Below are positions 4,501-62,551 of a stretch of DNA of 64,000 nucleotides, piece by piece. The stretch is from Lamellibrachia columna (taxonomy: Eukaryota > Annelida > Polychaeta > Sabellida > Siboglinidae). The position numbers and the translations under genes were made by a program. The stretch covers positions 28,250,023-28,314,022 of the forward strand of contig OY759263.1 in the NCBI GenBank assembly GCA_963662155.1, read 5' to 3'. Under the pieces are notes generated by a model. The model searched no databases. It saw only the letters and a list, made by a program, of their open reading frames with translations, and was not told where the DNA came from. The number at the start of each line of letters is the position of its first letter. Positions within the stretch are counted from its first letter, which is position 1.

Positions 4501-6224
4501 CTCCGCTTGTTGATTCGACGGAAAGTGTCGTTTCCTCGGTTGTAGTTGGTGCGGCACTATCTGTGGCCACAGCAGAAGACAATGATTCCGTAGACCCAGT
4601 TCTTTCCACCGCTGTGGTGGAGGCTGGTGCAAATCGAGGAGAATGAATATAAATAAACACATGTGCAATTCTAGTAACATATAAAACTATTTGTTATATA
4701 TAATTGTACTGCCATAGTGTAGTGTACGTCCATAATGCAATGCACATTTCTAAAATATATTATTTGGCAGGGAAAATGTTTGTATCAAAAATAAATGAAA
4801 TATTCAATTTGGTAGTTTTTGTTGGACGGAATATATTTTTTAACACAGTCTTTAAACATATCAGTATTTACTTGCATTGACTTTGTGTACCCTAAGTTAG
4901 TACACAACTCCATCGATTAACATATATGAGGATGCAATCAAAACAAAACAATTTGTTTGAATATGCAACTTATATATGTGGAACAACAAAAGGAGTTAGT
5001 TACCTTCGCTCGTTGTCACACCTGACTGCGATGTCTCTTCAATCGTTCCTGTTGCGACTGACTCTGCAGCTGTGTCATCGGTAACTGTGGTGGCTGCAAC
5101 ATATTGTATATTCACGTTAACATCGTAATGTAATATATATTTGATGGTTGTCATTCAAAATATTTGTTTTGCAACTGACTATATGCTATAATATTATTTT
5201 TATGAATAATTGTTATTCTGTTCCGTACTTACTTACTTCCAGCAGTAGCAGTGAAACGCAACCTCTATATTAACGTAATAATACGACGTTGCACTGTTAC
5301 CATTATTTATAAAGCAACAGTTTCAATAGAATTCGTTGAACTTCTTGATGCCAAATTAGAAAGATTGTATATTGAGCAAAATAGTGACATTAATTGACAA
5401 TGAAGGAAGGCTAAAATGAAATAATTATAGAAAACACATGTCTACCTTCACTCGTTGATTCGACGGAAAGTGTTGCTTCTTCGCTAGTAGCTGGGGCATC
5501 TGTACCTGTTGCTGCTGTCGAAGACACGGTTTCGATTGATCGCGTGGTTTCCATCTCTGCGGTAGAAGCTGATGCAAAAGGTGTGCGAATATGAGTCGTA
5601 ATATGCATTTGATTGATGTAGATATTTATTGATGATCTAAAATGTTCAGTCATATGACGCGTGGTGACGAAACGGTACATGTAACACCTAGAATAATTAT
5701 TCCACATAGCAGCAAAATAAAAATATTTGGAAAACATTCAAATCAATAATTGTTTCTGGATTGAACATTCCTTTTTGGACAATATATCTTTATATATTTA
5801 TATAGGTAGATAGTTTATAACACTTACATTTCTGCCAACTTAGTTTAATAATATGGTACAACGAATGGAGCTAGTTACCTTCGCTCTCTGTCTCAATGGC
5901 CTGCGTCGTTTCTTCACTCGTACCTGTTGCAACTGTTTCTGTTGCCGCAGAGGACGACAAGCTCTCTGTCGATCCCGATGTTTCATCGACGCCTGTGGTT
6001 GTTGCGTCAGATCGAACATTCAGCTTAACATTGTAACTGATTTTATAAAAACATTTGACAGTTGTCAATATTAAACTAAATCATATCTTCAGTGTCTGTT
6101 TCGTGCTATTTTTTTCACATATCTGTGAATGTTGATGCTAGAAGAGTATTTCAGGTAAACGGGAGGTAACCGTGCAAATCAAAGTCGAATACATTGAAAT
6201 AGTCAAAACAAACAGCAATTGTAC
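4501..6224 (-). repeat. Array 1 unit 1 (downstream-most)
   Basis: Exons A1 4501-4623, D1 5004-5093, C1 5446-5568, B1 5879-6001. This is among the most diverged units. A1 ends SGG instead of SEG. C1 reads AEMETTRSIETV and EEATLSVES. The B1 acceptor has changed from AG to AA (+ strand TT at 6002-6003), so B1 may be skipped; skipping keeps the frame. Confidence 0.8.
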
Positions 6225-43016: not shown

Positions 43017-43094
<78 letters not shown>

Positions 43095-44157: not shown

Positions 44158-44253
<96 letters not shown>

Positions 44254-47200
44254 GTAATAATATTGAACATTATGCTGATTCATAAATGTTATGTGATGTT
44301 TTCCAAGCTACAAATTGTGCTTTTGCATTATCAAACCTGATGTATTCATTTTGAAATATGAAACAACGAATATGTTTGATATTTTCAATACAAATTTATA
44401 TTTTAAAATAGCTGTATATAACACTCCTGTTTTCTTCGTGTGGTATCAAAATAGAGCTATAGCGTTTCTATATTTCCAAAATGACAACTGGAAAGGGATA
44501 CACATAACTGCATTTGTAAACATTCGGTCGGTGTTACCTGAAGCAGTCGTACTTTCTATCTCGAGAGTAGTAGTATCGAATGATGCAGTAGTAGAAGACG
44601 TCGCTGAAACAGTTTCTTCCAGGGTAGTTTTCCCTTCTACTAGCGTACTTGCTACAGTTGCTGAATAATCAATATTCCACAATAAATTACAAATATCATA
44701 GTTATATTATATTTATTTTCTATTTATTATAATTAATATCAATCGTTCCATATGTTCAACAAATTAGCAGTTTCGTAGATATTTCAATTGGGTAATAAAA
44801 TATTAATAACGGACGAATAGATAAAACGATTAGTTGCGATCAAACTTTTACCTTCGCTTGTTGTTTCGACGAAAGATGTTGTTCCTTCGATTGTTGTTTG
44901 TGCAGCTGTTCCAGTGGTCTCTGTCGAAGTTATTGTTTCGGTTGAACCAGTGGTAACATCCGCAGCTGTGGTTGTTGCTGAAAAAAAAATATTTTAAATA
45001 GAGCTAAGCATTTAGTAGATGCAGGAATTAAATTATTTTCTGTAATGACAGTTATATTGGTAAACAAATAACATTGCCTACCCATCAAAATTACACTGAT
45101 TGTTTAAACAGAAATGACATTCATTTACCTTCGCTCGTTGTCTCAAGGGATTGCGTCGTTCCTTCGATTGTACTTGTTTCAACTGACTCTGTAGTCGCTG
45201 CCGACGACAAGCTATCCGTCGATTCCGTGGTTTCCACAGGGGCTGTGGTGGATCCTGCCAGAAGAATATCATGTCAAATATATTCATTGGTTTGAACGAA
45301 GACATTGTTTTAACAACACATTGAAAACCCATATATATATATAAATGTAATTATATTGAACATTATGCTGATTCATCAATATTACGTGATTTGTTTCCAA
45401 GATAAAAGTTGTGCTTATGCATTACCAAACCTGATGTATTGATTTTGAAATATGAAACCAAGAATATGATTGATATTTTCAATACAACTTTATATTTTAA
45501 AATAGCTGTATAGCACTCCTTCTGTTTTCTTCGTGTGGTATCAAAATAGAGCTATATCATTTCTATATTTCCAAAATGACAACTGGAAAAGGATACACAT
45601 AACTGCATTTGTAAACATTCGGTCGGTGTTACCTGAAGCAGTCGTACTTTCTATCTCGAGAGTAGTAGTATCCAATGATGCAGTAGTAGAAGATGTCGCT
45701 GAAGTAGTTTCTTCCAAGGTAGTTTTCCCTTCTACTACCGTACTTGCTTCAGTTGCTGAATAATCAATATTCAACAATAAATTACAAATATCATAGTTAT
45801 ATTATATTTATTTTCTATTTATTATAATTAATATCAATCGTTCCATATGTTCAACAAATTAGCAGTTTCGTAGATATTTCAATTGGGTAATAAAATATTA
45901 ATAACGGACGAATAAATAAAACGATTAGTTGAGATCAATTTGTACCTTCGCTAGTTGTTTCAACGAAAGATGTTGTTCCTTCGATTGTTGTTTGTGCAGC
46001 TGTTCCAGTGGTCTCTGTCGAAGTTTTTGTTTCGGTTGACCCCGTAGTAACATCCGCAGCTGTGGTTGTTGCTGAAAAAAAATATTTTAAATAGAGCTAA
46101 GCATTTAGTAGATTCAGGAATTAAATTATTTTCTGTAATGACAGTTATATTGGTAAACAACTCACATTGCCTACCCATCAAAATTACACTTATTGTTTAA
46201 ACAGAAATGACAGTCATTTACTTTCGCTCGTTGTCTCAACGGATTGCGTCGTTCCTTCGATTGTACTTATTTCAACTGACTCGATAGTCGCTGCCGACGA
46301 CAAGCTATCCGTCGATTCTGTGGTTTCCACATGGGCTGTGGTGGATCCTGCCAGAAGAATATCATGTCAAATGAATTTATTAGTTTGAACGAAGACTTTT
46401 TTAACAACACATTGAACATCCATATATATAAATGGAATAACATTGAACATTATGCTGATTCATAAATGTTATGTGATTTGTTTCCAAGCTACAAGTTGCG
46501 CTTTTCCATTATCAAAACTCATATATTAATTTTGAAATATGAAACCACGAATATGATTGATATTTTCAATACAACTTTATATTTTAAAATAGCTGCATAG
46601 CACTCCTTCTGTTTTCTTCGTGTGGTATCAAAGATAGAGCTATATCATTTCTATATTTCAAAATGACAACTAGAAAGGGATACACATTACTGCATTTGTA
46701 AACATTCGGTCGGTGTTACCTAAAGCAGTCGTACTTTCTATCTCGAGAATAGAAGTATCCAATGATGCAGTAGTAGAAGACGCCGCTGAAGTAGTGTCTT
46801 CCACGGTAGTTTTCCCTTCTACTACCGTACTTGCTACAGTTGCTGAATAATCAAAAGTAAAAAATAAAATACAAATATCATAGTTATATTATAATTATTT
46901 TCTATTTATTATAATTAATATCAATCGTTCTATACGTTCAACAAATTAGCAGTTTCTTAGATATTTCAATTGGGTAATAAAATATTAATAACCGACGAAT
47001 AGATAAAATTATTAATTTAGATCAATCTTGTACCTTCGCTAGTTGTTTCGACGAAAGATGTTGTTCCTTCGAATGTTGTTTGTGCAGCTGTTCCAGTGGT
47101 CTCTGTCGAAGTTATTGTTTCGGTTGACCCTGTGGTAACATCCGCAGCTGTGGTTGTAGCTGAAAAAAAATTATTTGAAAAAGACCTCAGCATTTAGTAG

Positions 47201-50200
47201 ATTCAGGAACTAAATTATTTTCTGTAATGACAGTTATATTGGTAAACAAGTCTCATTGCTTACCCATCAAAATTACACTTATTTTTAACAGAAATGACAG
47301 TCATTTACCTTCGCTCGTTGTCTCAACGGATTGCGTCGTTCCTTCGATTGTACTTGTTTCAACTGACTCTGTAGTCGCTGCCGACGACAAGCTATCCGTC
47401 GCTTCCGTGGTTTCCACAGGGGTTGTGTTGGATCCTGCCAGAAGAATATCATGTCAAATACATTCATTGATTTAAACGAAGACATTGTTTTAATAACACA
47501 TTGAACATCCATATATATAAATGGAATAACATTGAACATTATGCTGATTCATAAATGTTATGTGATTTGTTTCCAAGCTACAAGTTGCGCTTTTGCATTA
47601 TCAAACCTCATGTATTCATTTTGAAATATGAAACAACGAATATGATTGATAATTTCAATGCAACTTTATATTTTAAAATAGCTGCACAGCATTCCTTTTG
47701 TTTTCTTCTTGTGGTATCAAAGATAGAGCTATATCATTTCTATATTTCCAAAATGACAACTGGAAAGGGATACACATAACTGTATTTGTAAACATTCGGT
47801 TGGTGTTACCTGAAGCAGTCGTACTTTCTATCTCGAGAGTAGTAGTATGCAATGATGGAATAGTAGAAGACGACGCTGAAGTAGTGTCTTCCTCGGTAGT
47901 TTTCCATTCTACTACCGTACTTGCTACAGTTGGTGAATAGTCAAAATTCAACAATAAATTACAAATATCAGAGTTATAATATATTTATTTTCTATTTATT
48001 ATAAGTAATATCAATCGTTCCGTATGTTCAACAAATTAGCAGTTTCGTAGATATTTCAATTGGGTAATAAAATATTAATAACAGGCGAATAGATCAAACG
48101 ATTAGTTGAGATCATTATTGTACCTTCGCTAGTTGTTTCGACGAAAGATATTGTTCCTTCGATTGCTGTTTGTGCAGCTGTTCCTGTGGTCTCTGTCGAA
48201 GATATTGTTTCGGTTGACCCCGTGGTAACATCCGCAGCTGTGGTTGTTGCTGAAAAAAAAATACTTCAAATAGAGCTAAGCATTTAGTAGATGCAGGAAT
48301 TTAATTATTTTCTGTAATGACAGTTATATTGGTAAACAAGTCACATTGCCTACCCATAAAATTACATTTAATGTTTAAACAGAAATGACAGTCATTTACC
48401 TTCGCTCGTTGTCTCAACGGATTGCGTCGTTCCTTCGATTGTACTTGTTTCAACTGACTCTGTAGTCGCTGCCGACGACAAGCTATCCGTCGATTCCGTG
48501 GTTTCCACAGGGGCTGTGGTGGATCCTGCCAGAAGAATATCATGTCAAATGCATTCATTGATTTGAACGAAGACATTGTTTTAACAACACATTGAACATC
48601 CATATATATAAATGGAATAACATTGAACATTATGCTGATTCATAAATGTTATGTGATTCGTTTCCAAGCTACAAGTTGCGCTTTTGCATTAACAAAACTC
48701 ATGTATTAATTTTGAAACATGAAACAACGAATGTGATTGATATTTTCAATACAAATTTATATTTTAAAATAGCTGCATAGAACTCCTTCTGTTTTCTTCG
48801 TGTGGTATCAAAGATAGAGCTATATCGTTTCTATATTTCCAAAATGACAACTAGAAAGGGATACACATAACTGCATTTGTAAACATTCGGTCGGTGTTAC
48901 CTGAAGTAGTCGAACTTTCTATCTCGAGAATAGTAGTATCCAATGTTGCAGTAGTAGAAGACGTCGCAGAAGTAATGTCTTCCAAGGTAGTTTTCCCTTC
49001 TACTACCGTACTTGCTACAGTTGCTGAATAATCTAAATGAAAAAATAAATTACAAATATCATAGTTATATTATATTTATTTTCTATTGATTATAATTAAT
49101 ATCAATCGTTCCATCTGTTCAACAAATTAGCAGTTTTGTAGATATTTCAATTGGGTAATAAAATATTAATAACGGACGAATAAATAAAACGATTAGTTGA
49201 GATCAATTTGTACCTTCGCTAGTTGTTTCAACGAAAGATGTTGTTCCTTCGATTGTTGTTTGTGCAGCTGTTCCAGTGGTCTCTGTCGAAGTTATTGTTT
49301 CGGTTGACCCCGTGGTAACATCCGCAGCTGTGGTGGTCGCTGATAAAAATACTTGAAATATAGCTAAGCATTTAGTAGATGCAGGAATTAAATTATTTTC
49401 TGTAATGACAGTTATATTGGTAAACATGTCACGTTGCCTACCCATCAAAATTACACTCATTGTTTAAACAGAAATGACTGTAATTTACCTTCGCTCGTTG
49501 TCTCAACGGATGGCGTCGTTCCTTCAATTGTATTTGTTTCAATTGACTCTGTAGTCGCTGCCGACGACAAGCTATCCGTCGATTCCGTGGTTTCCACAGG
49601 GGCTGTGGTGGATCCTGCCAGAAGAATATCATGTCAAATGCATTTATTGGTTTGAACGAAGACATTGTTTTAACAACACATTGAACATCCATATATATAA
49701 ATGGAATAACATTGAACATTATGATGATTCATAAATGTTATGTGATTTGTTTCCAAGCTACAAGTTGCGCTTTTGCATTATCAAACCTAATGTATTAATT
49801 TTGAAATATGAAACAACGAATATGATTGATATTTTCAATACTACTTTATATTTTAAAATAGCTGCATAGCACTCCTTCTGTTTTTTCGTGTGGTATCAAA
49901 GATAGAGCTATATCTTTTCTATATTTCCAAAATGACAACTGGAAAGGTATACACATAAATGCATTTGTAAACATTCGGTCGGTGTTACCTGAAGCAGTCG
50001 TACTTTCTATCTCGAGAATAGTAGTATCCAATGATGCAGTAGTAGAAGACGTCGCTGAAGTAGTGTCTTCCACGGTAGTTTTCCCTTCTACTACCGTACT
50101 TGCTACAGTTGCTGAATAATCAAAATTTAAAAATAAAATACAAATATCATAGTTATATTATAATTATTTTCTATTTATTATAATTAATATCAATCGTTCT

Positions 50201-53200
50201 ACATGTTCAACAATTTAGCAGTTTCGTAGATATTTCAATTGGGTAATAAAATATTAATAACGGACGAATAGATAAAATGATTAATTTAGATCAATCTTGT
50301 ACCTTCGCTAGTTGTTTCGACGAAAGATGTTGTTCTTTCGATTGTTGTTTGTGCAGCTGTTCCAGTGGGCTCTGTCGAAGATACTGTTTCGGTTGACCCC
50401 GTGGTAACATACGCAGCTGTGGTGGTCGCTGAAAAAAAATACTTGAAATATAGCTAAGCATTTAGTAGATGCAGGAATTAAATTATTTTCTGTAATGACA
50501 GTTATATTGGTAAACATGTCACGTTGCCTACCCATCAAAATTACACTTATTGTTTAAACAGAAATGACAGTCATTTACCTTCGCTCGTTGTCTCAAAGGA
50601 TTGCGTCGTTCCTTCGATTGTATTTGTTTCAACTGACTCTGTAGTCGCTGCCGACGACAAGCTATCCGTCGATTCCGTGGTTTCCACAGGGGCTGTGGTG
50701 GATCCTGCCAGAAGAATATCATGTCAAATGCATTCATTGGTTTGAAAGAAGACATTGTTTTAACAACACATTGAACATCCATATATATAAATGGAATAAC
50801 ATTGAACATTATGCTGATTCATAAATGTTATGTGATTTTTTCCAAGCTACAAGTTGCGCTTTTGCATTATCAAACCTAATGTATTAGTTTTGAAATATGA
50901 AACAACGAATATGATTGATATTTTCAATACAACTTTACATTTTAAAATAGCTGCATAGCACTCCTTCTGTTTTCTTCGTGTGGTATCAAAGATAGAACTA
51001 TATAATTTCTATATTTCCAAAATGACAACTAGAAAGGGATACACATAACTGCATTTCTAAACATTCGGTCGGTGTTACCTGAAGCAGTCGTACTTTCTAT
51101 CTCGAGAATAGTAGTATCCAATGTTGCAATAGTAGAAGACGTCGCTGAAGTAGTGTCTTCCACGGTAGTTTTCCCTTCTACTACCGTACTTGCTACAGTT
51201 GCTGAATAATCAAAATTTAAAAATAAAATACAAATATCATAGTTATATTATAATTATTTTCTATTTATTATAATTAATATCAATCGTTCTACATGTTCAA
51301 CAAATTAGCAGTTTCGTAGATATTTCAATTGGGTAATAAAATATTAATAACGGACGAATAGATAAAATGATTAATTTAGATCAATCTTTTACCTTCGCTA
51401 GTTGTTTCGACGAAAGATGTTGTTCTTTCGATTGTTGTTTGTGCAGCTGTTCCAGTGGTCTCTGTCGAAGATACTGTTTCGGTTGACCCCGTGGTAACAT
51501 ACGCAGCTGTGGTGGTCGCTGAAAAAAAAAACTTGAAATATAGCTAAGCATTTAGTAGATGCAGGAATTAAATTATTTTCTGTAATGACAGTTATATTGG
51601 TAAACAAGTCACATTCCCTACCCATCAAAATTACACTTATTGTTTAAACAGAAATGACAGTCATTTACCTTCGCTCGTTGTCTCAAAGGATTGCGTCGTT
51701 CTTTCGATTGTACTTGTTTCAACTGACTCTGTAGTCGCTGCCGACGACAAGCTATCCGTCGATTCCGTGGTTTCCACAGGGGCTGTGGTGGATCCTGCTA
51801 GAATAATATCATGTCAAATGCATTCATTGGTTTGAACGAAGACATTGTTTTAACAACACATTGAACATCCATATATATAAATGGAATAACATTGAACATT
51901 ACGCTGATTCATAAATGTTATGTGACTTTATCCAAGCTACAAGTTGCGCTTTTGCATTATCAAACCTAATGTATTAATTTTGAAATATGAAACAAAGAAT
52001 ATGATTGATATTTTCTATACTACTTTATATTTTAAAATAGCTGCATAGCATTCCTTCTGTTTTCTTCGTGTGGTATCAAAGATAGAGCTATATCTTTTCT
52101 ATATTTCCAAAATGACAACTAGAAAGGTATACACATCACTGCATTTGTAAACATTCGATCGGTGTTACCTGAAGCAGTCGTACTTTCTATCTCGAGAATA
52201 GTAGTATCCAATGATGCAGTAGTAGAAGACGTCGCTGAAGTAGTGTCTTCCACGGTAGTTTTCCCTTCTACTACCGTACTTGCTACAGTTGCTGAATAAT
52301 CAAAATTTTAAAATAAAATACAAATATCATAGTTATATTATAATTATTTTCTATTTATTATGATTAATATCAATCTTTCTACATGTTCAACAAATTAGCA
52401 GTTTCGTAGATATTTCAATTGCGTAATAAAATATTAATAACCGACGAATAGATAAAATGATTAATTTAGATCAATCTTGTACCTTCGCTAGTTGTTTCAT
52501 AGAAAGATGTTGTTCCTTCGATTGTTGTTTGTGCAGCTGTTCCAGTGGTCTCTGTCGAAGTTATTGTTTCGTTTGACCCCGTGGTAACATCCGCAGCTGT
52601 GGTGGTCGCTGAAAAAAAATTATTTGAAATAGAACTAAGCATTTAGTAGATGCAGGAATTAAATTATTTTCTGTAATGACATTTATATTGGTAAAGAAGT
52701 CTCATTGCCTACCCATCAAAATTACACTTATTTTTTAAACAGAAATTACAGTCATTTACCTTCGCTCGTTGTCTCAACGGATTGCGTCGTTCCTTCGATT
52801 GTACTTGTTTCAACTGACTCTGTAGTCGCTGCCGACGACAAGCTATCCGTCGATTCCGTGGTTTCCACAGGGGCTGTGGTGGATCCTGCAAGAAGAATAT
52901 CATGTCAAATGCATTTATTGGTTTGAACGAAGACATTGTTTTAATAACACAGTGAACATCCACATATATAAATGGAATAACATTGAACATTATGCTGATT
53001 CATAAAAGTTATGTGATTTGTTTCCAAGCTACAATTTGCGCTGTTGCATTATCAAACCTAATATATTAATTTTGAAATATGAAACAACGAATATGATTGA
53101 TATTTTCAATACAACTTTATACTTAATAATAGCTGCATAGCACTCCTTCTGTTTTCTTCGTGTGGTATCAAAGATAGAGCTATATCATTTCTATATTTCC

Positions 53201-56200
53201 AAAATGACAACTGGAAAGGGATACACATAACTGCATTTGTAAACATTCGGTCGGTGTTACCTAAAGCAGTCGTACTTTCTATCTCGAGAATAGTAGTATC
53301 CAATGATGCAGTAGTAGAAGACGTCGCTGAAGTAGTGTCTTCCACGGTAGTTTTCCCTTCTACTACCGTACTTGCTACAGTTGCTGAATAATCAAAAGTA
53401 AAAAATAAAATAAAAATATCATAGTTATATTATAATTATTTTCTATTTATTATAACTAATATCAATCGTTCTATATGTTCAACAAATTAGCAGTTTCGTA
53501 GATATTTCAATTGGGTAATAAAATATTAATAACCGAAGAATAGATAAAATGATTAATTTAGATCAATCTTGTACCTTCGCTAGTTGTTTCGACGAAAGAT
53601 GTTGTTCTTTCGATTGTTGTTTGTGCAGCTGTTCCAGTGGTCTCTGTCGAAGATACTGTTTCGGTTGACCCCGTGGTAACATCCGCAGCTGTGGTTGTTG
53701 CTGAAAAAAAATACTTAAATAGAGCTAAGCATTTAGTAGATGCAGGAATTAATTATTTTCTGTAATGACAGTTATATTGGTAAACAAGTCACATTCCCTA
53801 CCCATCAAAATTACACTTATTGTTTAAACAGAAATGACAGTCATTTACCTTCGCTCGTTGTCTCAACGGATGGCGTCGTTCCTTCAATTGTACTTGTTTC
53901 AACAGACTCTGTAGTCGCTGCCGACGACAAACTATCCGTCGATTCCGTGGTTTCCACAGGGGCTGTGGTGGATCCTGCCAGAAGAATATCATGTCAAATG
54001 CATTCATTGGTTTGAACGAAGACTTTGTTTTAACAACACATTGAACATCCATATATATAAATGGAATAACATTGAACATTATGCTGATTCATAAATGTTA
54101 TGTGATTTGTTTCCGAGCTAGAAGTTGCGCTTTTGCATTATCAAAACTAATGTATTAATTTTGAAATATGAAACAACGAATATGATTGATATATTCAATA
54201 CAACTTTATATTTTAAAATAGCTGCATAGAACTCCTTCTGTTTTCTTCGTGTGGTATCAAAGATAGAGCTATATCATTTATATATTTCCAAAATGACAAC
54301 TAGAAAGGGATACACATAACTGCATTTGTAAACATTCGGTCGGTGTTACCTGAAGCAGTCGTACTTTCTATCTCGAGAATAGTAGTATCCAATGATGCAG
54401 TAGTAGAAGACGTCGCTGAAGTAGTGTCTCCCACGGTAGTTTTCCCTTCTACTACCGTACTTGCTACAGTTGCTGAATAATCAAAAGTAAAAAATAAAAT
54501 ACAAATGTCATAGTTATATTATAATTATTTTCTATTTATTATAATTAATATCAATCATTCCATATGTTCAACAAATTAGCAGTTTCGTAGATATTTCAAT
54601 TGGGTAATAAAAAATTAATAACCGACGAATAGATAAAATGATTAATTTTGATCAATCTTGTACCTTCGCTAGTTGTTTCGACGAAAGATGTTGTTCCTTC
54701 GATTGTTGTTTGTGCAGCTGTTCCAATGGTCTCTGTCGAAGTTATTGTTTCGGTTGACCCCGTGGTAACATCCGCAGCTGTGGTTGTTGCTGAAAAAAAA
54801 TTATTTGAAAAACACCTAAGCATTTAGTAGATTCAGGAACTAAATTATTTTCTGTAATGACAGTTATATTGGTAAACAAGTCTTATTGCATACCCATCAA
54901 AATTACACTTATTTTTAAACAGAAATGACAGTCATTTACCTTCGCTTGTTGTCTCAACGGATTGCGTCGTTCCTTCGATTGTACTTGTTTCAACACACTC
55001 TGTAGTCGCTGCCGACGACAAGCTATCCGTCGATTCCGTGGATTCCACAGGGGCTGTGGTGGATCCTGCCAGAAGAATATCATGTCAAATGCATTCATTG
55101 GTTTGAACGAAGACTTTTTTAGCAACACATTGGACATCCATATATATAAATGAAATAACATTGAACATTATGCTGATTCATCAATGTTATGTGATTTGTT
55201 TCCAAGCTACAATTTTCGCTTTTGCATTATAAAACCTCATAATTATATTTATTTTGAAATATGAAACAACGAATATGATTGATAATTTCAATGCAACTTT
55301 ATATTTTAAATAGCTGCTTTGCACTCCTTCTGTTTTCTTCGTGTGGTATCAAAGATAGAGCTATATCATTTCTATAATTCCAAAATGACAACTAGAAAGG
55401 GATACACATAACTGCATTTGTAAACATTCGGTCGGTGTTACCTGAAGCAGTCGTACTTTCTATCTCGAGAATAGTAGTATCCAATGATGCAATAGTAGAA
55501 GACGTCGCAGAAGTAATATCTTCCACGGTAGTTTTCACTTCTACTACCGTACTTGCTACAGTTGCTGAATAATCAAAAGTAAAAATATAAAATACAAATA
55601 TCTTAGTTATATTATAATTATTTTCTATTTATTATAATTAATATCAATCGTTCTATATGTTCAACAAATTAGCAGTTTCGTAGATATTTCAATTCGGTAA
55701 TAAAATATTAAAAAAGGCCGAATAGATAAAACGATTAGTTGAGATCAAATTGTACCTTCGCTAGTTGTTTCGACGAAAGATGTTGTTCCTTCGATTGTTG
55801 TTTGTGCAGCTGTTCCAGTGGTCTCTGTCGAAGTTATTGTTTCGGTTGACCCCGTGGTAACATCCGCAGCTGTGGTTGTTGCTGAAAAAAAAATACTTGA
55901 AATAGAGCTAAGCATTTAGTAGATGCAGGAATTAAATTATGTTCTGTAATGACAGTTATATTGGTTAACAAGTCACATTGTCTACCCTTCAAAATTACAC
56001 TTATTGTTTAAACAGAAATTACAGTCATTTACTTTCGCTCGTTGTCTCAACGGATTGCGTCGTTCCTTCGATTGTACTTGTTTCAACTGACTCTGTAGTC
56101 GCTGCCGACGACAAGCTATCCGTCGATTCCGTGGTTTCCACAGGGGTTGTGGTGGATCCTGCCAGAAGAATATCATGTCAAATACATTCATTGATTTAAA

Positions 56201-59200
56201 CGAAGACATTGTTTTAATAACACATTGAACATCCATATATATATATAAATGTAATAATATTGAACATTATGCTGATTCATAAATGTTATGTGATTTGTTT
56301 CCAAGCTACAAGTTGCGCTTTTGCATTATCAAACCTCATGTATTCATTTTGAAATATCAAACATCGAATATGATTGATATTTTCAATATTGCTTTATATT
56401 TTAAAATATCTGCATAGCACTCCTTCTGTTTTCGTCGTGTTGTATCAAAGATAGAGCTATATAATTTCTATATTTCCAAAATGACAACCGGAAAAGCATA
56501 CACATCACTGCATTTGTAAACATTCTGTCGGTGTTACCTGAAGCAGTCGTACTTTCTATCTCGAGAATAGTAGTATCCAATGATGCAGTAGTAGAAGACG
56601 TCGCTGAAGTAGTGTCTTCCACGGTTGTTTTCCCTTCTACTACTGTACTTGCTACAGTTGGTGAATAGTCAAAATTCAACAATAAATTACAAATATCAGA
56701 GTTATAATATATTTATTTTCTATTTATTATAATTAATATCAATCGTTCCATCTGTTCAAAAAATTAGCAGTATCGTAGATATTTCAATTGGGTAATAAAA
56801 TATTAATAACGGCCGAATAGATAAAACGATTAGTTGAGATCAATCTTGTACCTTCGCTAGTTGTTTCGACGAAAGATGTTCCTTCGATTGTTGTTTGTGC
56901 AGCTGTTCCAGTGGTCTCTGTCGAAATAATTGTTTCTGTTGACCCCGTGGTAACATCCGCAGCTGTGGTTGTTGCTGAAAAAAAAATACTTGAAATAGAC
57001 CTAAGCATTTAGTAGATGCAGGAATTAAATTATTTTCTGTAATGACAGTTATATTTGGTAAACAAGTCACATTGTCTACCCATCAAAATTACACTTATTG
57101 TTAAAACAGAAATTACAGTCATTTACCTTCTCTCGTTGTCTCAACGGATTGCGTCGTTCCTTCGATTGTACTTGTTTCAACTGACTCTGTAGTCGCTGCC
57201 GACGACAAGCTATTCGTCGATTCCGTGGTTTCCACAGGGGCTGTGGTGGATCCTGCCAGAAGAATATCATGTCAAATACATTCATTGACTTAAACGAAGA
57301 CATTGTTTTAACAACACATTGAACATCCATATATATATAAATGTAATAATATTGAACATTATGCTGATTCATCAATGTTATGTGATTTGTTTCCAAGCTA
57401 CAAGTTGCGCTTTTGCATTATCAAACCTCATGTATTCATTTTGAAATATCAAACATCGAATATGATTGATATTTTCAATACTGCTTTATATTTAAAAATA
57501 GCTGCATAGCACTCCTTCTGTTTTCGTCGTGTTGTATCAATGATAGAGCTATATCATTTCTATATTTCCAAAATGACAACCGGAAAAGGATACACATCAC
57601 TGCATTTGTAAACATTCGGTCTGTGTTACCTGAAGCAGTCGTACTTTCTATCTCGAGAATAGTAGTATCCAATGATGCAGTAGTAGAAGATGTCGCAGAT
57701 GTAATGTTTTCCACGGTAGTTTTCCCTTCTACTACCGTACTTGCTACAGTTGCTGAATAATCAAAATGAAAAAATAAATTACAAATATCAGAGTTATAAT
57801 ATATTTATTTTCTATTTATTATAATTAATATCAATCGTTTCATATGTTCAACAAATTAGCAGTTTCGTAGATATTTCAATTGGGTAATAAAATATTAATA
57901 ACGGACGAATAGATAAAACGATTAGTTGAGATCAAATTGTACCTTCGCTAGTTGTTTCGACGAAAGATGTTGTTCCTTCGATTGTTGTTTGTGCAGCTGT
58001 TCCAGTGGTATCTGTCGAAATTATTGTTTCGGTAGACCCCGTGGTAACATCCGCAGCTGTGGATGTTGCTGAAAAAAAAATACTTGAAATAGAGCTAAGC
58101 ATTTAGTAGATGCAGGAATTAAATTATTTTCTGTAATGACAGTTATATTGGTAAACAAGTCACATTGTCTACCCATCAAAATTACACTTATTGTTTAAAC
58201 AGAAATTACAGTCATTTACCTTCGCTCGTTGTCTCAACGGATTGCGTCGTTCCTTCGATTGTACTTGTTTCAACTGACTCTGTAGTCGCTGCCGACGACA
58301 AGCTATCCGTCGATTCCGTGGTTTCCACAGGGGCTGTGGTGGATCCTGCCAGAAGAATATCATGTCAAATACATTCATTGATTTAAACGAAGACATTGTT
58401 TTAACAACGCATTGAACATCCATATATATATAAATGTAATAATATTGAACATTATGCAGATTCATAAATGTTATGTGATTTGTTTCCAAGCTACAAGTTG
58501 CGCTTTTGCATTATCAAACCTCATGTATTCATTTTGATATATCAAACATCGAATATGATTGATATTTTCAATACTGCTTTATATTTTAAAATAGTTGCAT
58601 AGCACTCCTTCTGTTTTCGTCGTGTTGTATCAATGATAGAGCTATATAATTTCTATATTTCCAAAATAACAACCGGAAAAGGATACACATCACTGCTTTT
58701 GTAAACATTCGGTCTGTGTTACCTGAAGCAGTCGTACTTTCTATCTCGAGAATAGTAGTATCTAATGATGCAGTAGTAGAAGACGTCGCAGAAGTAATGT
58801 CTTCCACGGTAGTTTTCCCTTCTACTACCGTACTTGCTACAGTTGCTGAATAATCAAAATGAAAAAATAAATTACAAATATCAGAGTTATAATATATTTA
58901 TTTTCTATTTATTATAATTAATATCAATCGTTTCATATGTTCAACAAATTAGCAGTTTCGTAGATATTTCAATTGGGTAATAAAATATTAAAAAAGGCCG
59001 AATAGATAAAACGATTAGTTGAGATCAAATTGTACCTTCGCTAGTTGTTTCGACGAAAGATGTTGTTCCTTCGATTGTTGTTTGTGCAGCTGTTCCAGTG
59101 GTCTCTGTCGAAGTTATTGTTTCGGTTGACCCCGTGGTAACATCCGCAGCTGTGGTTGTTGCTGAAAAAAAAAAACTTGAAATAGAGCTAAGCATTTAGT

Positions 59201-62200
59201 AGATGCAGGAATTAAATTATGTTCTGTAATGACAGTTATATTGGCACATGTTTGTGGGTGACCTTGTGGCGAAATGGCCCCACCTGTTTGTAATTAAATT
59301 TGTGTATTGGTGGTGTAATGTCTGTATTCTTTGCATTACATGTTCATGACGACTTCTTGATGTATATATGTTATCGTCATGCCTGTAGGAATGTGGGCTC
59401 TGAGAAACTTGCCGGACGGGCTGTACATGTGTTCAGTTCCTGTCTGGTTTGCTTTGAGGAGCTCACATTCCTGTTAATGTGCTTCCCAAAGTGGCTGCGT
59501 GATAAGCAGTCCACTTTGCAATAAAACGTCATTTATTTGGCCCTTTTCAATCTCTACTACATCAGACTTGTGTTGGTTATTGCATAAATATTGGTTAACA
59601 AGTCACATTGTCTACCCATCAAAATTACACTTATTGTTTAAACAGAAATTACAGTCATTTACTTTCGCTCGTTGTCTCAACGGATTGCGTCGATCCTTCG
59701 ATTGTACTTGTTTCAACTGACTCTGTAGTCGCTGCCGACGACAAGCTATCCGTCGATTCCGTGGTTTCCACAGGGGCTGTGGTGGATCCTGCCAGAAGAA
59801 TATCATGTCAAATACATTCATTGATTTAAACGAAGACATTGTTTTAACAACGCATTGAACATCCATATATATATAAATGTAATAATATTGAACATTATGC
59901 AGATTCATAAATGTTATGTGATTTGTTTCCAAGCTACAAGTTGCGCTTTTGCATTATCAAACCTCATGTATTCATTTTGAAATATCAAACATCGAATATG
60001 ATTGATATTTTCAATATTGCTTTATATTTTAAAATATCTGCATAGCACTCCTTCTGTTTTCGTCGTGTTGTATCAAAGATAGAGCTATATCATTTCTATA
60101 TTTCCAAAATGACAACTGGAAAGGGATACACATGACTGCATTTGAAAACATTCGGTCGGTGTTACCTGAAGCAGTCGTACTTTCTATCTCGAGAGTAGTA
60201 GTATCCAATGATGGAGTAGTAGGAGACGTCGCTGAAGTAGTGTCTTCCACGGTAGTTTTCCCTTCTACTACCGTACTTGCTACAGTTGCTGAATAAACAA
60301 AATAAAAAAAAAAATTACAAATATCATAGTTATATTATATTTATTTTCTATTTATTATAATTAATATCAATCGTTCCATATGTTCAACAAATTAGCAGTT
60401 TCGTAGATATTTCAATTGGGTAATAAAATATTAATAAAGGCCGAATATATAAAATGATTAGTTGAGATCAATCTTGTACCTTCGCTAGTTGTTTCGACGA
60501 AAGATGTTGTTCCTTCGATTGTTGTTTGTGCAGCTGTTCCAGTGGTCTCTGTCGAAATTATTGTTTCAGTTGACCCCGTGGTAACATCCGCAGCTGTGGA
60601 TGTTGCTGGAAAAAAAATACTTGAAATAGAGCTAAGCATTTAGTAGATGCAGGAATTAAATTATTTTCTGTAATGACAGTTATATTGGTAAACAAGTCAC
60701 ACTGCCTACCCATCAACATTAAACTTATTGTTTAAACATAAATGACAGTCATTTACCTTCGCTCGTTGTCTCAACGGATTGCGTCGTTCCTTCGATTGTA
60801 CTTGTTTCAACTGACTCTGTAGTCGCTGCCGACGACAAGCTATCCGTCGATTCAGTGGTTTCCACAGGGGCTGTGGTGGATCCTGCCAGAAGAATATCAT
60901 GTCAAATACATTCATTGATTTAAACGAAGACATTGTTTTAACAACACATTGAACATCCATATATATATATAAATGTAATAATATTGAACATTATGCTGAT
61001 TCATTAATATTATGTGATTTGTTTCCAAGCTACAAGTTGCACTTTTGCATTATCAAACTTCATGTATTCATTTTGAAATATCAATCATCGAATATGATTG
61101 ATATTTTCAATACTGCTTTATATTTTAAAATAGCTGCATAGCACTCCTTCTGTTTTCGTCGTGTTGTATCAAAGATAGAGCTATATCATTTCTATATTTC
61201 CAAAATGACAACTGGAAAGGGATACACATAACTGCATTTGTAAACATTCGGTCGGTGTTACCTGAAGCAGTCGTACTTTCTATCTCGAGAGTAGTAGTAT
61301 CCAATGATGGAGTAGTAGGAGACGTCGCTGAAGTAGTGTCTTCCACGGTAGTTTTCCCTTCTACTACCGTACTTGCTACAGTTGCTGAATAAACAAAATA
61401 AAAAAATAAATTACAAATATCATAGTTATATTATATTTATTTTCTATTTATTATAATTAATATCAATCGTTCCATAGGATCAACAAATTAGCAGTTTCGT
61501 AGATATTTCAATTGGGTAATAAAATATTAATAACGGCCGAATATATAAAATGATTAGTTGAGATCAATCTTGTACCTTCGCTAGTTGTTTCGACGAAAGA
61601 TGTTGTTCCTTCGATTGTTGTTTGTGCAGCTGTTCCAGTGGTCTCTGTCGAAATTATTGTTTCAGTTGACCCCGTGGTAACATCCGCAGCTGTGGATGTT
61701 GCTGAAAAAAAAATACTTGAAATAGAGCTAAGCATTTAGTAGATGCAGGAATTAAATTATTTTCTGTAATGAAAGTTATATTGGTAAACAAGTCACACTG
61801 CCTACCCATCAAAATTAAACTTATTGTTTAAACATAAATGACAGTAATTTACCTTCGCTCGTTGTCTCAACGGATTGCGTCGTTCCTTCGATTGTACTTG
61901 TTTCAACTGACTCTGTAGTCGCTGCCGACAACAAGCTATCCGTCGATTCCGTGGTTTCCACAGGGGCTGTGGTGGATCCTGCCAGAAGAATATCATGTCA
62001 AATACATTCATTGATTTAAACGAAGACATTTTTTAACAACACATTGAACATCCATATATATATAAATGTAATAATATTGAACATTATGCTGATTCATAAA
62101 TGTTATGTAATTTGTTTCCAAGCTACAAGTTGCGCTTTTGCATTATCAAACCTCATGTATTCATTTTGAAATATCAAACATCGAATATGATTGATATTTT

Positions 62201-62468
62201 CAATACTGCTTTATATTTTAAAATAGCTGCATAGCACTCCTTCTGTTTTCGTCGTGTTGTATCAAAGATAGAGCTATATCATTTCTATATTTTCAAAATG
62301 ACAACTGGAAAGGGATACACATCACTGCATTTGTAAACATTCGGTCGGTGTTACCTGAAGCAGTCGTACTTTCTATCTCGAGAATAGTAGTATCCAATGA
62401 TGCAGTAGTAGAAGACGTCGCAGAAGTAATGCCTTCCACGGTAGTTTTCCCTTCCACTACCGTACTTG
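4501..62468 (-). CDS. Giant mucin-like Ser/Thr/Glu-rich gene, internal part (141 exons)
   Basis: A minus-strand gene made of 141 short exons: 22 A, 21 B, 21 C, 21 D, 19 E, 19 F and 18 G; positions are given with each unit. Every exon starts with two bases and ends with one base of a split codon (phase 1-1), so the joined product is one continuous frame of about 5,530 residues. I saw no stop in any exon. Exon A, for example, is about half Ser plus Thr with net negative charge; none has cysteine. Most exons end in a T(T/S)SE motif followed by a donor reading AGCGAAG|GTA. This composition is typical of O-glycosylated mucin-like proteins that are secreted or on the cell surface; the specific role is unknown. 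No signal peptide, membrane span, folded domain, first exon or terminal exon lies in the window. The 5' side is interrupted by a LINE at 62.55 kb, inside an intron if the gene continues. Confidence 0.75.
6225..7975 (-). repeat. Array 1 unit 2
   Basis: Exons A2 6225-6347, D2 6741-6830, C2 7179-7301, B2 7630-7752. A2 carries SSAPTTT and SVEITSE variants, D2 starts with a Thr-to-Lys change and ends TTIE, and B2 reads GGFETSGSTESVSS. All splice sites are canonical and all frames open. Confidence 0.85.
7976..9726 (-). repeat. Array 1 unit 3
   Basis: Exons A3 7976-8098, D3 8492-8581, C3 8930-9052, B3 9381-9503. Intron variants in its A-to-C half (AATATTAGTTATAT at 8161, TTGTTGGGCGG near 8310, TTTGTCTTGCATC near 8791, CGCAAACTC near 8741) are shared with units 16-18 over 22 kb away, while its B-exon flank matches units 4-5. 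Confidence 0.9.
9727..11476 (-). repeat. Array 1 unit 4
   Basis: Exons A4 9727-9849, D4 10243-10332, C4 10680-10802, B4 11131-11253. The last base of D4 is A (AGCGAAA before GT), changing the split codon to Thr and weakening the donor. It forms a nearly identical block with unit 5 (both 1,750 bp). Confidence 0.9.
11477..13226 (-). repeat. Array 1 unit 5
   Basis: Exons A5 11477-11599, D5 11993-12082, C5 12430-12552, B5 12881-13003. D5 ends in A as in unit 4. A5 has two changes near its 3' end (CTTTCC to CTATCA) that leave Leu-Ser unaltered. B5 reads VEILGSTES. Confidence 0.9.
13227..14924 (-). repeat. Array 1 unit 6
   Basis: Exons A6 13227-13349, D6 13743-13832, C6 14181-14303, B6 14579-14701. 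D6 ends in A. C6 ends SQ instead of SE, a change shared only with C13. The B-C intron (near 14408) carries the deletion of about 53 bp that defines the short class. Confidence 0.9.
14925..16658 (-). repeat. Array 1 unit 7
   Basis: Exons A7 14925-15047, D7 15441-15530, C7 15879-16001, B7 16313-16435. D7 has VETATE for VDTATE. A separate deletion of about 18 bp in the B-C intron near 16168 makes the unit 1,734 bp long. Confidence 0.9.
16659..18410 (-). repeat. Array 1 unit 8
   Basis: Exons A8 16659-16781, D8 17175-17264, C8 17613-17735, B8 18065-18187. C8 has ENVSSTAETG. B8 carries SDSTES and AIQTASE, both shared with B10, which marks the left edge of the duplicated 3.45-kb block. Confidence 0.9.
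18411..20161 (-). repeat. Array 1 unit 9
   Basis: Exons A9 18411-18533, D9 18927-19016, C9 19365-19487, B9 19817-19939. D9 carries NTVAV and TATDAV, and B9 carries SGSKES. The same variants occur in unit 11, its near-identical copy. Confidence 0.9.
20162..21859 (-). repeat. Array 1 unit 10
   Basis: Exons A10 20162-20284, D10 20678-20767, C10 21116-21238, B10 21514-21636. A10 reads SAAITTEE. The short-class deletion lies in the B-C intron near 21343. Unit 12 is its copy. Confidence 0.9.
21860..23610 (-). repeat. Array 1 unit 11
   Basis: Exons A11 21860-21982, D11 22376-22465, C11 22814-22936, B11 23266-23388. It has the same length as unit 9 (1,751 bp) and repeats its private variants. Confidence 0.9.
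23611..25308 (-). repeat. Array 1 unit 12
   Basis: Exons A12 23611-23733, D12 24127-24216, C12 24565-24687, B12 24963-25085. It matches unit 10 up to the B-C intron deletion near 24792. B12 then departs (STENLTSS), which sets the right edge of the duplicated block. Confidence 0.9.
25309..27061 (-). repeat. Array 1 unit 13
   Basis: Exons A13 25309-25431, D13 25825-25914, C13 26263-26385, B13 26716-26838. D13 has Lys in place of a Thr (GVKTSE). C13 ends SQ and has the same intron-side variants as C6, 12 kb away. Confidence 0.9.
27062..28758 (-). repeat. Array 1 unit 14
   Basis: Exons A14 27062-27184, D14 27578-27667, C14 28016-28138, B14 28413-28535. A14 has ATGSAAP. The short-class deletion is near 28243, with a further small change at about 28309. 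Confidence 0.9.
28759..30456 (-). repeat. Array 1 unit 15
   Basis: Exons A15 28759-28881, D15 29275-29364, C15 29713-29835, B15 30111-30233. D15 shares NTVAV and TATDAV with D9 and D11. The short-class deletion is near 29940. Confidence 0.9.
30457..32208 (-). repeat. Array 1 unit 16
   Basis: Exons A16 30457-30579, D16 30973-31062, C16 31411-31533, B16 31863-31985. It is the first of three almost identical 1,752-bp units (16-18), marked by TTGTTGGGCGG and ATATGTGGATGC in the D-A intron. Confidence 0.9.
32209..33960 (-). repeat. Array 1 unit 17
   Basis: Exons A17 32209-32331, D17 32725-32814, C17 33163-33285, B17 33615-33737. D17 begins TTSVAV-like (Thr to Ser at its third residue), shared with D18. 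Confidence 0.9.
33961..35712 (-). repeat. Array 1 unit 18
   Basis: Exons A18 33961-34083, D18 34477-34566, C18 34915-35037, B18 35367-35489. The A18 donor is GTATAA where its neighbours have GTACAA. Confidence 0.9.
35713..37466 (-). repeat. Array 1 unit 19
   Basis: Exons A19 35713-35835, D19 36229-36318, C19 36666-36788, B19 37118-37240. It is more diverged than units 3-18. B19 ends GCGAAT before GT, making the split codon Ser and the donor weak. C19 reads EESTLSVEQTSE. Confidence 0.85.
37467..39221 (-). repeat. Array 1 unit 20
   Basis: Exons A20 37467-37589, D20 37983-38072, C20 38421-38543, B20 38873-38995. C20 has APATIEE, and D20 has VAGDTATE in place of VAVDTATE. At 1,755 bp it is the longest unit in the array. 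Confidence 0.9.
39222..40973 (-). repeat. Array 1 unit 21
   Basis: Exons A21 39222-39344, D21 39739-39828, C21 40177-40299, B21 40629-40751. A21 has SAAQTTTEE, D21 has SGLTTSE and C21 has VETARSTE. Divergence rises towards this edge of the array, as at the other edge. Confidence 0.85.
40974..41637 (-). repeat. Array 1 unit 22, partial (exon A only)
   Basis: Exon A22 is 40974-41096 (DSEAPTTT variant). Exon D is missing: the D-A intron breaks near 41300 (CATTTGGATAGTT) and resumes beyond D at TATGTTAACATC (about 41307). At 41637 the sequence leaves array 1 just inside the donor end of what would be exon C and enters array 2. Confidence 0.85.
41720..42816 (-). repeat. Array 2 unit 1
   Basis: Exons E1 41720-41845, F1 42228-42341, G1 42542-42667. 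It is the junction unit with array 1 (breakpoint 41637/41638). E1 has TTAQVE, G1 has GSIETITS, and F1 has GKITLEDTA and a single-AG acceptor. Confidence 0.85.
42817..43957 (-). repeat. Array 2 unit 2
   Basis: Exons E2 42817-42942, F2 43369-43482, G2 43683-43808. A TA tract at 43019-43092 in the F-E intron adds about 50 bp. F2 has TTTLVIES. Confidence 0.85.
43019..43092. repeat. (TA)n expansion in F-E intron, unit 2
   Basis: A pure TA tract lies where sister units have only CATATATATAAATG. This is a microsatellite expansion private to this unit. Confidence 0.95.
43958..45128 (-). repeat. Array 2 unit 3
   Basis: Exons E3 43958-44083, F3 44538-44651, G3 44852-44977. At 1,171 bp it is long because of the TA tract at 44160-44251. 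E3 reads TAPVETMESTGS. Confidence 0.85.
44160..44251. repeat. (TA)n expansion in F-E intron, unit 3
   Basis: It occupies the same site as the tract in unit 2 but is longer, so the short TA core carried by every unit expanded here too. Confidence 0.95.
45129..46221 (-). repeat. Array 2 unit 4
   Basis: Exons E4 45129-45254, F4 45633-45746, G4 45946-46071. E4 has TQSLETTSE. G4 has ETKTSTE, a Lys in an otherwise Thr/Ser stretch. F4 has EASTVVE with a CTGAAG acceptor. Confidence 0.85.
46222..47308 (-). repeat. Array 2 unit 5
   Basis: Exons E5 46222-46347, F5 46720-46833, G5 47034-47159. E5 ends in A (GCGAAA before GT). The last full codon of F5 is Leu where others have Ser. G5 begins ATTTAAD after a TAG-type change near 47158 that leaves the acceptor AG intact. 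Confidence 0.85.
47309..48399 (-). repeat. Array 2 unit 6
   Basis: Exons E6 47309-47434, F6 47810-47923, G6 48124-48249. E6 has NTTPVETTEATDS. F6 reads EWKTTEEDTTSASSS and has a single-AG acceptor. G6 has GTTGTAAQTAIEG with ETISSTE. Confidence 0.85.
48400..49488 (-). repeat. Array 2 unit 7
   Basis: Exons E7 48400-48525, F7 48901-49014, G7 49214-49339. F7 has TTLEDITSATSSTATLDTT. G7 has GCGACCACC at its start, a variant seen from here to G10. Confidence 0.85.
49489..50578 (-). repeat. Array 2 unit 8
   Basis: Exons E8 49489-49614, F8 49989-50102, G8 50303-50428. E8 has ESIETNTIEGTTPSVE. G8 carries AAYVTTG (Asp to Tyr), EPTGTAA and IERTTSF (Gly to Arg). Confidence 0.85.
50579..51668 (-). repeat. 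Array 2 unit 9
   Basis: Exons E9 50579-50704, F9 51079-51192, G9 51393-51518. G9 shares the AAYV and IERTTS variants with G8. E9 has TTQSFETTSE. Confidence 0.85.
51669..52759 (-). repeat. Array 2 unit 10
   Basis: Exons E10 51669-51794, F10 52169-52282, G10 52483-52608. E10 has TIERTTQSFE. G10 reads SFYETTSE where others have SFVETTSE, and NETITS in place of TETITS. Confidence 0.85.
52760..53848 (-). repeat. Array 2 unit 11
   Basis: Exons E11 52760-52885, F11 53261-53374, G11 53575-53700. The last codon of F11 is Leu, as in F5, and the two units also share AATCAAAAGTAAAAAAT beside the F acceptor. Confidence 0.85.
53849..54939 (-). repeat. Array 2 unit 12
   Basis: Exons E12 53849-53974, F12 54350-54463, G12 54664-54789. 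E12 has TIEGTTPSVE as in E8. F12 has VGDTTSATS (Glu to Gly). G12 has TETIGTAAQ. Confidence 0.85.
54940..56032 (-). repeat. Array 2 unit 13
   Basis: Exons E13 54940-55065, F13 55442-55555, G13 55756-55881. E13 has VESTEST and ECVETST; the latter puts a cysteine codon in an array that otherwise lacks cysteine. F13 has EVKTTVEDI. The G-side flank (AAAAAAGGCCG near 55709) recurs in unit 16. Confidence 0.8.
56033..57126 (-). repeat. Array 2 unit 14
   Basis: Exons E14 56033-56158, F14 56538-56651, G14 56852-56974. E14 ends in A. G14 is 123 nt: one Thr codon is missing from IEGTTS (reads IEGTS), an in-frame deletion. F14 has a single-AG acceptor. Confidence 0.85.
57127..58219 (-). repeat. Array 2 unit 15
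   Basis: Exons E15 57127-57252, F15 57630-57743, G15 57943-58068. E15 ends with a REG-type change (AGA for AGC, Ser to Arg) and has TNSLSS. F15 has VENITSATS. Confidence 0.85.
58220..59662 (-). repeat. Array 2 unit 16, with element insertion
   Basis: Exons E16 58220-58345, F16 58723-58836, G16 59036-59161. The unit is 1,443 bp long because a 343-bp element sits in the intron between E17 and G16 (59245-59587). Without it the unit would be of ordinary length. Confidence 0.85.
59245..59587 (+). mobile_element. Short interspersed element, copy 2, with 7-bp target duplication
   Basis: ATATTGG at 59238-59244 is repeated at 59588-59594. Removing the element and one copy restores the uninterrupted array sequence seen in unit 13-14 (TTATATTGGTTAACAAG). 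The body matches 1842-2188 almost throughout, starting about 17 bases in, so it is 5'-truncated. It lies in an intron in antisense orientation to the mucin-like gene. Confidence 0.85.
59663..60756 (-). repeat. Array 2 unit 17
   Basis: Exons E17 59663-59788, F17 60166-60279, G17 60480-60605. E17 ends in A and has TIEGSTQ. F17 has TSPTTPSLDTT, shared with F18. G17 begins with Ser from its changed acceptor-side codons (GCATCC). Confidence 0.85.
60757..61852 (-). repeat. Array 2 unit 18
   Basis: Exons E18 60757-60882, F18 61262-61375, G18 61576-61701. It is near-identical to unit 17 in F and G, including the changed AATAAACAAAAT flank beside the F acceptor. Confidence 0.85.
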
Positions 62469-62551
62469 CTACAGTTGCTGAATAATCAAAATTAAAAAAT
62501 AAATTACAAATATCATAGTTATATTATATTTATGTTCTATTAATTATAATT
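61853..62551 (-). repeat. Array 2 unit 19, cut by LINE
   Basis: Exons E19 61853-61978 (CRQ-frame change gives LLSAA in place of LSSAA) and F19 62355-62468 (VEGITSATS). The F-G intron runs only to about 62551, where the LINE tail begins, so G19 is not in the window. It may lie beyond the LINE. Confidence 0.85.

Follow-up and report, generated by a model that had tools for sequence, protein, structure and literature searches.

A candidate giant minus-strand gene for a MUC4-like mucin with an estimated 1,170 array exons in Lamellibrachia columna

The question raised by this locus of the annelid Lamellibrachia columna is whether two tandem arrays of short exon-like segments, lying head to tail, belong to one gene, and what kind of protein such a gene would encode. 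The stretch of DNA analyzed here (the window, 64,000 nucleotides) corresponds to C3:28250023-28314022, where C3 is one of the 30 contigs of the 880-Mb genome. The minus strand of the window contains 141 exon-like segments of seven types (A to G) between positions 4501 and 62477. Here it is proposed, with a probability of about 0.83, that they form part of the mucin domain of a MUC4-like transmembrane mucin encoded by one giant gene on the minus strand.

In the direction of transcription, a 1.09-kb unit with the order E-F-G is repeated first (19 E, 19 F and 18 G segments), followed by repeats of a 1.75-kb unit with the order A-D-C-B (22 A and 21 each of D, C and B). The segments are 90, 123 or 126 nt long, all of them multiples of three, and all 141 are in phase 1-1. 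Every segment has a GT donor, and 137 of the 141 have an AG acceptor, the exceptions being three E with AC and one D with AA. Joined, they produce 5,585 codons without a stop, against 120 and 191 stops in the remaining two sense frames. This agrees with an earlier note on the window, made from its letters, which had described two arrays of 1.75-kb and 1.09-kb units fused head to tail and apparently in one frame, every repeat segment of 30-42 residues being its own exon. The frame of about 5,530 codons ending at 62468 that was given there matches the inner of two in-frame AG acceptors of exon E; the outer one yields 5,585 codons and an end at 62477. The count of at least 141 exons is exact inside the window and understates the whole array, for which about 1,170 are implied, the window holding about an eighth of them. 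Antisense coding was discarded, as the opposite-strand frames of the joined exons carry 314, 181 and 5 stops, leaving no fully open plus-strand frame.

The 5,585 residues consist of 30.9% Thr, 17.2% Ser, 14.8% Glu, 12.4% Ala and 1.5% Pro, which bears out the Ser/Thr/Glu-rich character noted before and constitutes the long Ser/Thr-rich repeat domain expected of a mucin. Because proline is low and glutamate high, the domain is of a Thr/Ser/Glu type rather than of the classical proline-, threonine- and serine-rich (PTS) type. One repeat per exon, the arrangement of chicken Muc13, was found in all 141 segments of the window and in the 537 exons sampled overall, as read from genomic sequence only.

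This sample includes the window together with further stretches and probes of the array, and about 58% of the E-F-G array lies outside it. From 539 complete exon matches, two diverged ones upstream of the array were dropped (identity below 85%, one of them with a stop in a badly aligned part). The 537 exons kept (151 E, 151 F, 150 G, 22 A, 21 D, 21 C and 21 B) amount to 22,086 codons with no stop, and every length is a multiple of three. A contiguous run of 433 exons translates into 17,752 codons, also without a stop, while the other sense frames have 627 and 598.

The differences between copies point to constraint on the reading frame. Among the window's units, 39 are complete (18 E-F-G and 21 A-D-C-B); they show one exonic indel, of 3 nt, versus 43 intronic ones, 39 of which are not multiples of three (P ~4e-6), and no stop was realised versus ~10 expected from the intron mutation spectrum; a single "stop" class in this set is a one-step class only, with no stop in any exon itself. 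Similarly, a set of 132 E-F-G units, restricted to complete ones of at most 1,600 bases, has a single exonic indel (3 nt) versus 42 in introns, 39 of these with lengths not divisible by three (P 3e-7), and no stops versus ~16 expected. Two one-step stop changes in these units never became stops, owing to a second change in the same codon. The ratio of nonsynonymous to synonymous polymorphism (pN/pS) is ~0.78 in the window set and ~0.86 in the 132 units. There is thus little restraint on amino acid replacement, as would be the case in a mucin stalk where composition is what mainly matters. In the E-F-G units of the window, diversity is lower in exons (0.044) than in introns (0.069). Other features of the same data count against the proposal: exon diversity is hardly below that of introns in the A-D-C-B units of the window (0.028 vs 0.031), the 132 units have 260 distinct substitutions in 375 exon sites, no sparser than the 500 in 716 intron sites, variation in these units is highest at codon position 2, and the P values are optimistic because the copies share ancestry and are not independent. 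With exonic substitutions as dense as intronic ones, the constraint is visible in frame, stops and splice sites, and not in the residues, which are nearly free.

The splice sites are conserved as well. Donors are GT in 535 of 537 exons, two G copies having TT, and acceptors are AG in 151/151 F, 148/150 G, 22/22 A, 21/21 C, 21/21 B and 20/21 D exons. Three distinct variants were found at 28 splice dinucleotides versus 16.9 expected (P 4e-5), a figure that uses the inner AG of exon E, chosen after seeing the data; with the outer AG instead there are 5 in 28. The inner AG, 9 nt further in and in the same phase, is present in all 151 E exons and was for that reason taken as the working site. The outer acceptor counts against the proposal, being AG in 56 of the 151 copies, AC in 94 and AT in 1, and thus lost in 95.

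Such a pair of tandem acceptors, with the outer one lost in most copies, would also be compatible with a real gene whose array serves as a reservoir, with exon skipping, internal promoters or early polyadenylation limiting each mRNA to part of it; the proteins would then be far shorter and of variable length. Skipping would be harmless, since all sampled array exons are in phase 1-1, and splicing control of PTS length has been proposed for chicken Muc13 (PMC1552070). Against this stand the 537 sampled exons without a stop or frameshift and with few splice sites lost. We regard partial use of the array as possible, with the odds somewhat against it.

By protein identity between exon types (F-D 65%, A-C 70% and G-C 58%, with E the most diverged at 18-31%), the E-F-G and A-D-C-B arrays are one exon family. 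Mean identity between units is 94.3% with gaps counted, and 32 of 6,441 unit pairs are more than 99.9% identical, these near-identical pairs occurring at lags of 3, 4, 7, 8, 9, 12, 14 and 16 units. A displaced fragment of 541 bp was found on the plus strand at C3:36435883-36436423, ~8 Mb from the array, as the only other place among 40 genome matches listed. It is ~95% identical to the 1.75-kb unit and contains parts of exons C and B, whose 144 bases include one in-frame stop and a single 1-nt insertion, whereas 66,258 exon bases sampled inside the array have no such lesion. The copy outside the gene decayed while the array exons stay intact, a natural control that consists of a single case.

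These data bear on the explanation that the array is a satellite-like amplification of once-coding, now untranscribed sequence, with frames open because the copies are young and homogenised. Near-identical units at lags of up to 16, the restriction to one genomic locus and one relic among the places listed, and substitutions equally dense in exons and introns would fit it. However, the mean difference between units is 5.7% (gaps counted), the indels are in introns except for one of 3 nt, the expected stops are missing, the displaced copy has decayed and the splice dinucleotides are conserved, which makes this explanation highly improbable.

The array continues far beyond the right edge of the window. 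A 5.2-kb intron bearing a long interspersed nuclear element (LINE), from window position 62478 to ~67683, lies between exon E (62477) and an exon F that starts at C3:28,317,706; one G exon is missing there, and the reverse transcriptase open reading frame (ORF) of the element is on the same strand as the gene. After this intron, the E-F-G array resumes and was found in every stretch examined up to C3:28,685,222. Its conserved part reaches C3:28,692,105, the end of a G exon, and six probes from 28,714,023 onward contained none. Within the contiguous 433-exon run (116 E, 117 F, 115 G and 85 exons of the A-D-C-B array), the order is strict except for one F-to-E junction, at the LINE, and one F-to-A junction.

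A 24-base motif at the E donor (two mismatches or fewer), which recognises 151 of 151 known E exons, has 363 reverse matches in the whole genome, none forward and none for a reversed control; only the first places of the 363 were listed, and all of these are on C3 within the array. The genome-wide numbers of F and G were extrapolated as equal to E rather than counted, on the basis of their near-equal numbers in the 433-exon run. On this estimate, the full array would comprise ~1,090 E-F-G exons plus 85, that is ~1,170 exons, and 47,500-48,600 codons depending on the exon E acceptor used. It is conceivable that the assembly inflated or scrambled the copy number and that the true array is much shorter, as 1.09-kb units of ~94% identity over 400 kb are hard to assemble. 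The fetched array pieces have no N runs inside, and among 114 compared units no neighbouring pair is more than 99.9% identical; an artefact of this kind is thus considered unlikely.

Plausible ends for the proposed mucin gene were found on the same strand at both sides of the array. Upstream, a candidate first coding exon at C3:28,699,463-28,699,508 (positions 441-486 of locus L053, minus strand) reads MKYIHFILIMALVAA, then G and GTGAGT; it would encode a signal peptide ending in phase 1, compatible with the array. In gene direction, it precedes by ~2.0 kb the outermost of the diverged repeat exons (L052, 8310-8399), which has 90 nt and is open and in phase 1-1. Downstream, the C-terminal exons extend on the minus strand from ~C3:28,238.7 to 28,215.5 kb in the order cysteine-rich AMOP-like segment (labelled by eye), VWD, Ig-like, EGF series and transmembrane helix. 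The VWD domain is split over three exons with phase 1 junctions, as read from the DNA; joined, they match Pfam PF00094 (1.4e-12, 48.7 bits vs a cut-off of 22.9), and the two outer pieces alone are just under the cut-off. The EGF domains after it match PF07645 (EGF_CA; 1e-9 and 1.8e-7) and PF00008 (4.9e-7), all above the cut-off. The transmembrane segment (L022, 5520-6125, minus strand) was recognised by hydropathy only, with a 20-residue mean of 2.77 and approximate exon limits, and is followed by a cysteine-rich acidic stretch.

The concatenated C-terminal exons, a query with several unverified joins for which automatic exon chaining recovered only some of the exons, match annelid mucin-like proteins, namely P0001 (2.2e-158) and P0002 (3.1e-108) of Lamellibrachia and P0003-P0005 of Ridgeia. 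A total of seven proteins match at E 0.001, including one shark and one tardigrade protein. The three of the seven that were scanned (P0002, P0004 and P0006) contain VWD, NIDO, EGF and C8-3_MUC4 domains, the last (PF23263) below its cut-off in P0002 and P0004 and above it in P0006. At the locus, an Ig-like exon aligning to P0005 495-570 is all that was found for the C8-3_MUC4 segment. Searches by tblastn with P0001, P0002, P0004 and P0005 place the C-terminal exons in the expected order, with cross-matches among the EGF exons. The second half of the AMOP-like segment is 50% identical to P0004, and P0002 and P0004 themselves have no AMOP match at E 0.001. Since VWD and EGF domains are present and AMOP was not found, the gene was classified as a MUC4-like relative and not as MUC4. 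No SEA domain is among the Pfam matches of 17 ORFs, with no search aimed at SEA made.

Several observations weigh against one MUC4-like gene running through the locus. At the upstream end, only one of five diverged exon-like places, that at 8310-8399, is open over its full length, one of the other four being open only as a 60-nt piece and three not open, and one other such exon turned up elsewhere in the signal-peptide scan, which covered both strands of eight 10-kb loci and of the end of L052 (~174 kb of strand). At the C-terminal end, one junction inside the AMOP-like segment reads phase 0. No NIDO exon was found in the readable sequence of the locus by tblastn with four annelid relatives, Pfam AMOP was not found in the joined C-terminal piece, and the locus is absent from the 36 genome-wide AMOP matches listed (40 candidates scored). 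Immediately left of the window, the 7,500 bases of C3:28,242,523-28,250,022 read N, so that only strand, phase, order and the layout known for such mucins connect the array with the C-terminal exons; any NIDO exon of the gene would be expected to lie in that stretch. The array length depends on the assembly, and the gene is a prediction from genomic sequence. Finally, a protein search with a 555-residue array piece found no relative at E 0.001 (7,989 candidates scored, 5.8 billion sequences, length limits). The lack of any predicted protein resembling the repeats in that search suggests in turn that a gene of this type could be overlooked or broken up in automatic annotation.

The N stretch, and the failure of tblastn to find a NIDO exon between the array and the C-terminal exons, would also suit an arrangement of two genes, with the array having its own 3' end in the N stretch and the VWD-EGF-transmembrane exons belonging to a neighbour. 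We consider this quite unlikely, given the same strand, the right order, the compatible phases and a stalk followed by VWD-EGF-transmembrane exons, which is the layout expected of a MUC4-like protein. As a separate observation, AMOP-domain exons were found elsewhere in the genome, at C14:6.93-7.18 Mb, C14:22.06-22.10 Mb, C14:24.96-25.02 Mb and C9:43.6-44.4 Mb and on C2 and C10, and the AMOP-bearing (MUC4/SUSD2-like) family looks expanded.

Taken together, the single-gene proposal, and with it the earlier claim of one minus-strand gene of phase 1-1 mini-exons, is well supported by the open frame, the constraint on indels and splice sites and the plausible same-strand ends. The gene would begin with the signal-peptide exon and at least one diverged repeat exon, continue with the E-F-G array to C3:28,291,742, the A-D-C-B array (window 4501-41096) and a diverged exon (573-671), and end with the AMOP-like, VWD, Ig-like and several EGF exons, the transmembrane helix and a short tail, to ~C3:28,215,542. 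Because all array exons are in phase 1-1, units can be gained, lost or skipped without a frame shift. Unequal exchange and gene conversion, breaking within introns, may have enlarged the arrays, and the stalk would change in length by whole repeats through exchange, conversion or even exon skipping. In 21,549 residues there are 3,730 Asp and Glu versus 311 Lys and Arg, and one Cys. The predicted product is an acidic, Thr/Ser/Glu-rich and probably heavily O-glycosylated stalk, which would be held at the membrane by the VWD-EGF-transmembrane end and could form an extended surface barrier.

In its strongest form, the proposal has the unit transcribed as a whole and every exon spliced into the same mRNA. 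The transcription unit would then span ~484 kb, with ~1,170 array exons plus the terminal exons, and produce an mRNA of ~145-150 kb and a protein of ~48,000-50,000 residues, which we advance tentatively, at slightly less than even odds. PKZILLA-1, with ~45,000 residues, is the longest protein known to us. If true, the gene would have the most exons of any described gene found, exceeding the exon count of titin about threefold, and possibly the longest predicted protein, and it would raise the question of how the spliceosome handles more than 1,000 near-identical introns in order. It would also provide a test case for symmetric phase 1-1 exons that let protein length evolve by changes in copy number, and for a mucin stalk whose length is set by splicing or recombination, an idea that comes from chicken Muc13.

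Table 1. Coordinates of the features described, in window positions (1-based).
Feature	Position	Strand	Remarks
E-F-G exon array, window part, 1.09-kb unit, 56 mini-exons	41720..62477	-	continues ~400 kb past the right edge of the window
A-D-C-B exon array, 1.75-kb unit, 85 mini-exons	4501..41096	-	follows the E-F-G array in transcription; phases agree
Exon E, example, 123 nt from outer AG, 114 nt from inner AG at 62468	62355..62477	-	tandem in-frame acceptors
Exon F, example, 126 nt, 42 codons	61853..61978	-	
Exon G, example, 126 nt	61576..61701	-	
First exon A of second array	40974..41096	-	proposed splice to exon F 41720-41845 across the array junction; in phase
Array junction intron, 623 bp	41097..41719	-	mostly 1.75-kb-unit intron (95-97% identical); 1.09-kb-unit sequence at its upstream end (93%)
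Exon D, example, 123 nt	40629..40751	-	
Exon C, example, 123 nt	40177..40299	-	
Exon B, example, 90 nt	39739..39828	-	
Last well-conserved exon A of array	4501..4623 (C3:28254523-28254645)	-	
Diverged phase 1-1 exon candidate, same family, open, 99 nt, donor GTACGA	573..671	-	tblastn E 0.002 without composition correction
LINE reverse transcriptase ORF	62648..63919	-	Pfam RVT_1 3.4e-29; part of LINE insertion, not mucin
Mobile-element-like insertion, ~350 bp, limits by eye	59240..59595	.	in intron between F exon 59663-59788 and G exon 59036-59161

For the diverged exon candidate in the left flank (Table 1), longer starts at 689, 704 or 722 are likewise open. The same flank has a 128-bp segment duplicated at 81% identity (2759-2886 and 3199-3325), in which only short open Thr/Ser-rich pieces were found on the minus strand; these segments may be further decayed exons of the mucin gene. 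Segments 4153-4241 and 62549-62637, near both edges of the arrayed part, are 94% identical in opposite orientation. The right one coincides with the LINE 3' end, so both are probably ends of this kind. Inside E-F introns, at 43019-43092 and 44160-44250, there are pure (AT) runs of 37 and 45 copies in the place where other units have a short AT run; the repeats of the Schistosoma mansoni mucin SmPoMuc are likewise separated by microsatellites (PMC2576457). No tRNA or Rfam features were found in the window.

Among known systems, chicken Muc13 is a SEA-type mucin with far fewer exons. It is like the Lamellibrachia array in that every PTS repeat is its own exon, with length control by recombination and splicing proposed (PMC1552070); the array differs by its seven exon types, two composite units, ~1,170 copies and VWD/EGF C-terminus. 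SmPoMuc has a 27-bp exon 2 (9 residues) in ~1-kb tandem genomic repeats, with at most ~20 genomic repeats, up to ~55 in transcripts, and 15 exon types (PMC2576457). It thus resembles the array in having a mini-exon in a ~1-kb tandem unit multiplied within one mucin gene; its unit has a single exon, that of the array three or four. MUC16 has a SEA repeat of 156 residues coded by five exons and present at least 60 times (PMC3431878); it is similar to the array in its multi-exon repeat unit and different in that the repeats are SEA domains instead of Thr/Ser/Glu-rich segments. The earlier note did not recognise the architecture as that of a described gene family, but there are precedents in chicken Muc13, SmPoMuc and MUC16 (PMC1552070, PMC2576457, PMC3431878).

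In domain layout, the proposed gene resembles human MUC4, which is also a membrane mucin, has a giant domain of tandem repeats and carries VWD in its C-terminus. Its more than 100 repeats of 48 nt are inside exon 2 (PMC8567686) and MUC4 is characterised by NIDO, AMOP and VWD (PMC9080433), whereas in Lamellibrachia each repeat is its own exon, and NIDO and AMOP were not found in the readable sequence of the locus. The annelid mucin-like proteins (P0001 and P0002 of Lamellibrachia, P0003-P0005 of Ridgeia) have 30-36% identity and, from the AMOP-like segment through VWD and the Ig-like part to the EGF series, the same order of exons; P0001, P0002, P0004 and P0005 are short or partial and have no comparable repeat array. 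Human titin, which has 363 exons (PMC5852582), is similar in its extreme exon number and protein length and differs as an intracellular muscle protein. Among the papers listed by a narrow search of the open-licence literature, there was no described gene with more than 1,000 exons and no mucin exon array of this size. As far as checked, then, one repeat per exon is an architecture already known, and what would be new in the Lamellibrachia gene is its scale together with the MUC4-like C-terminus.
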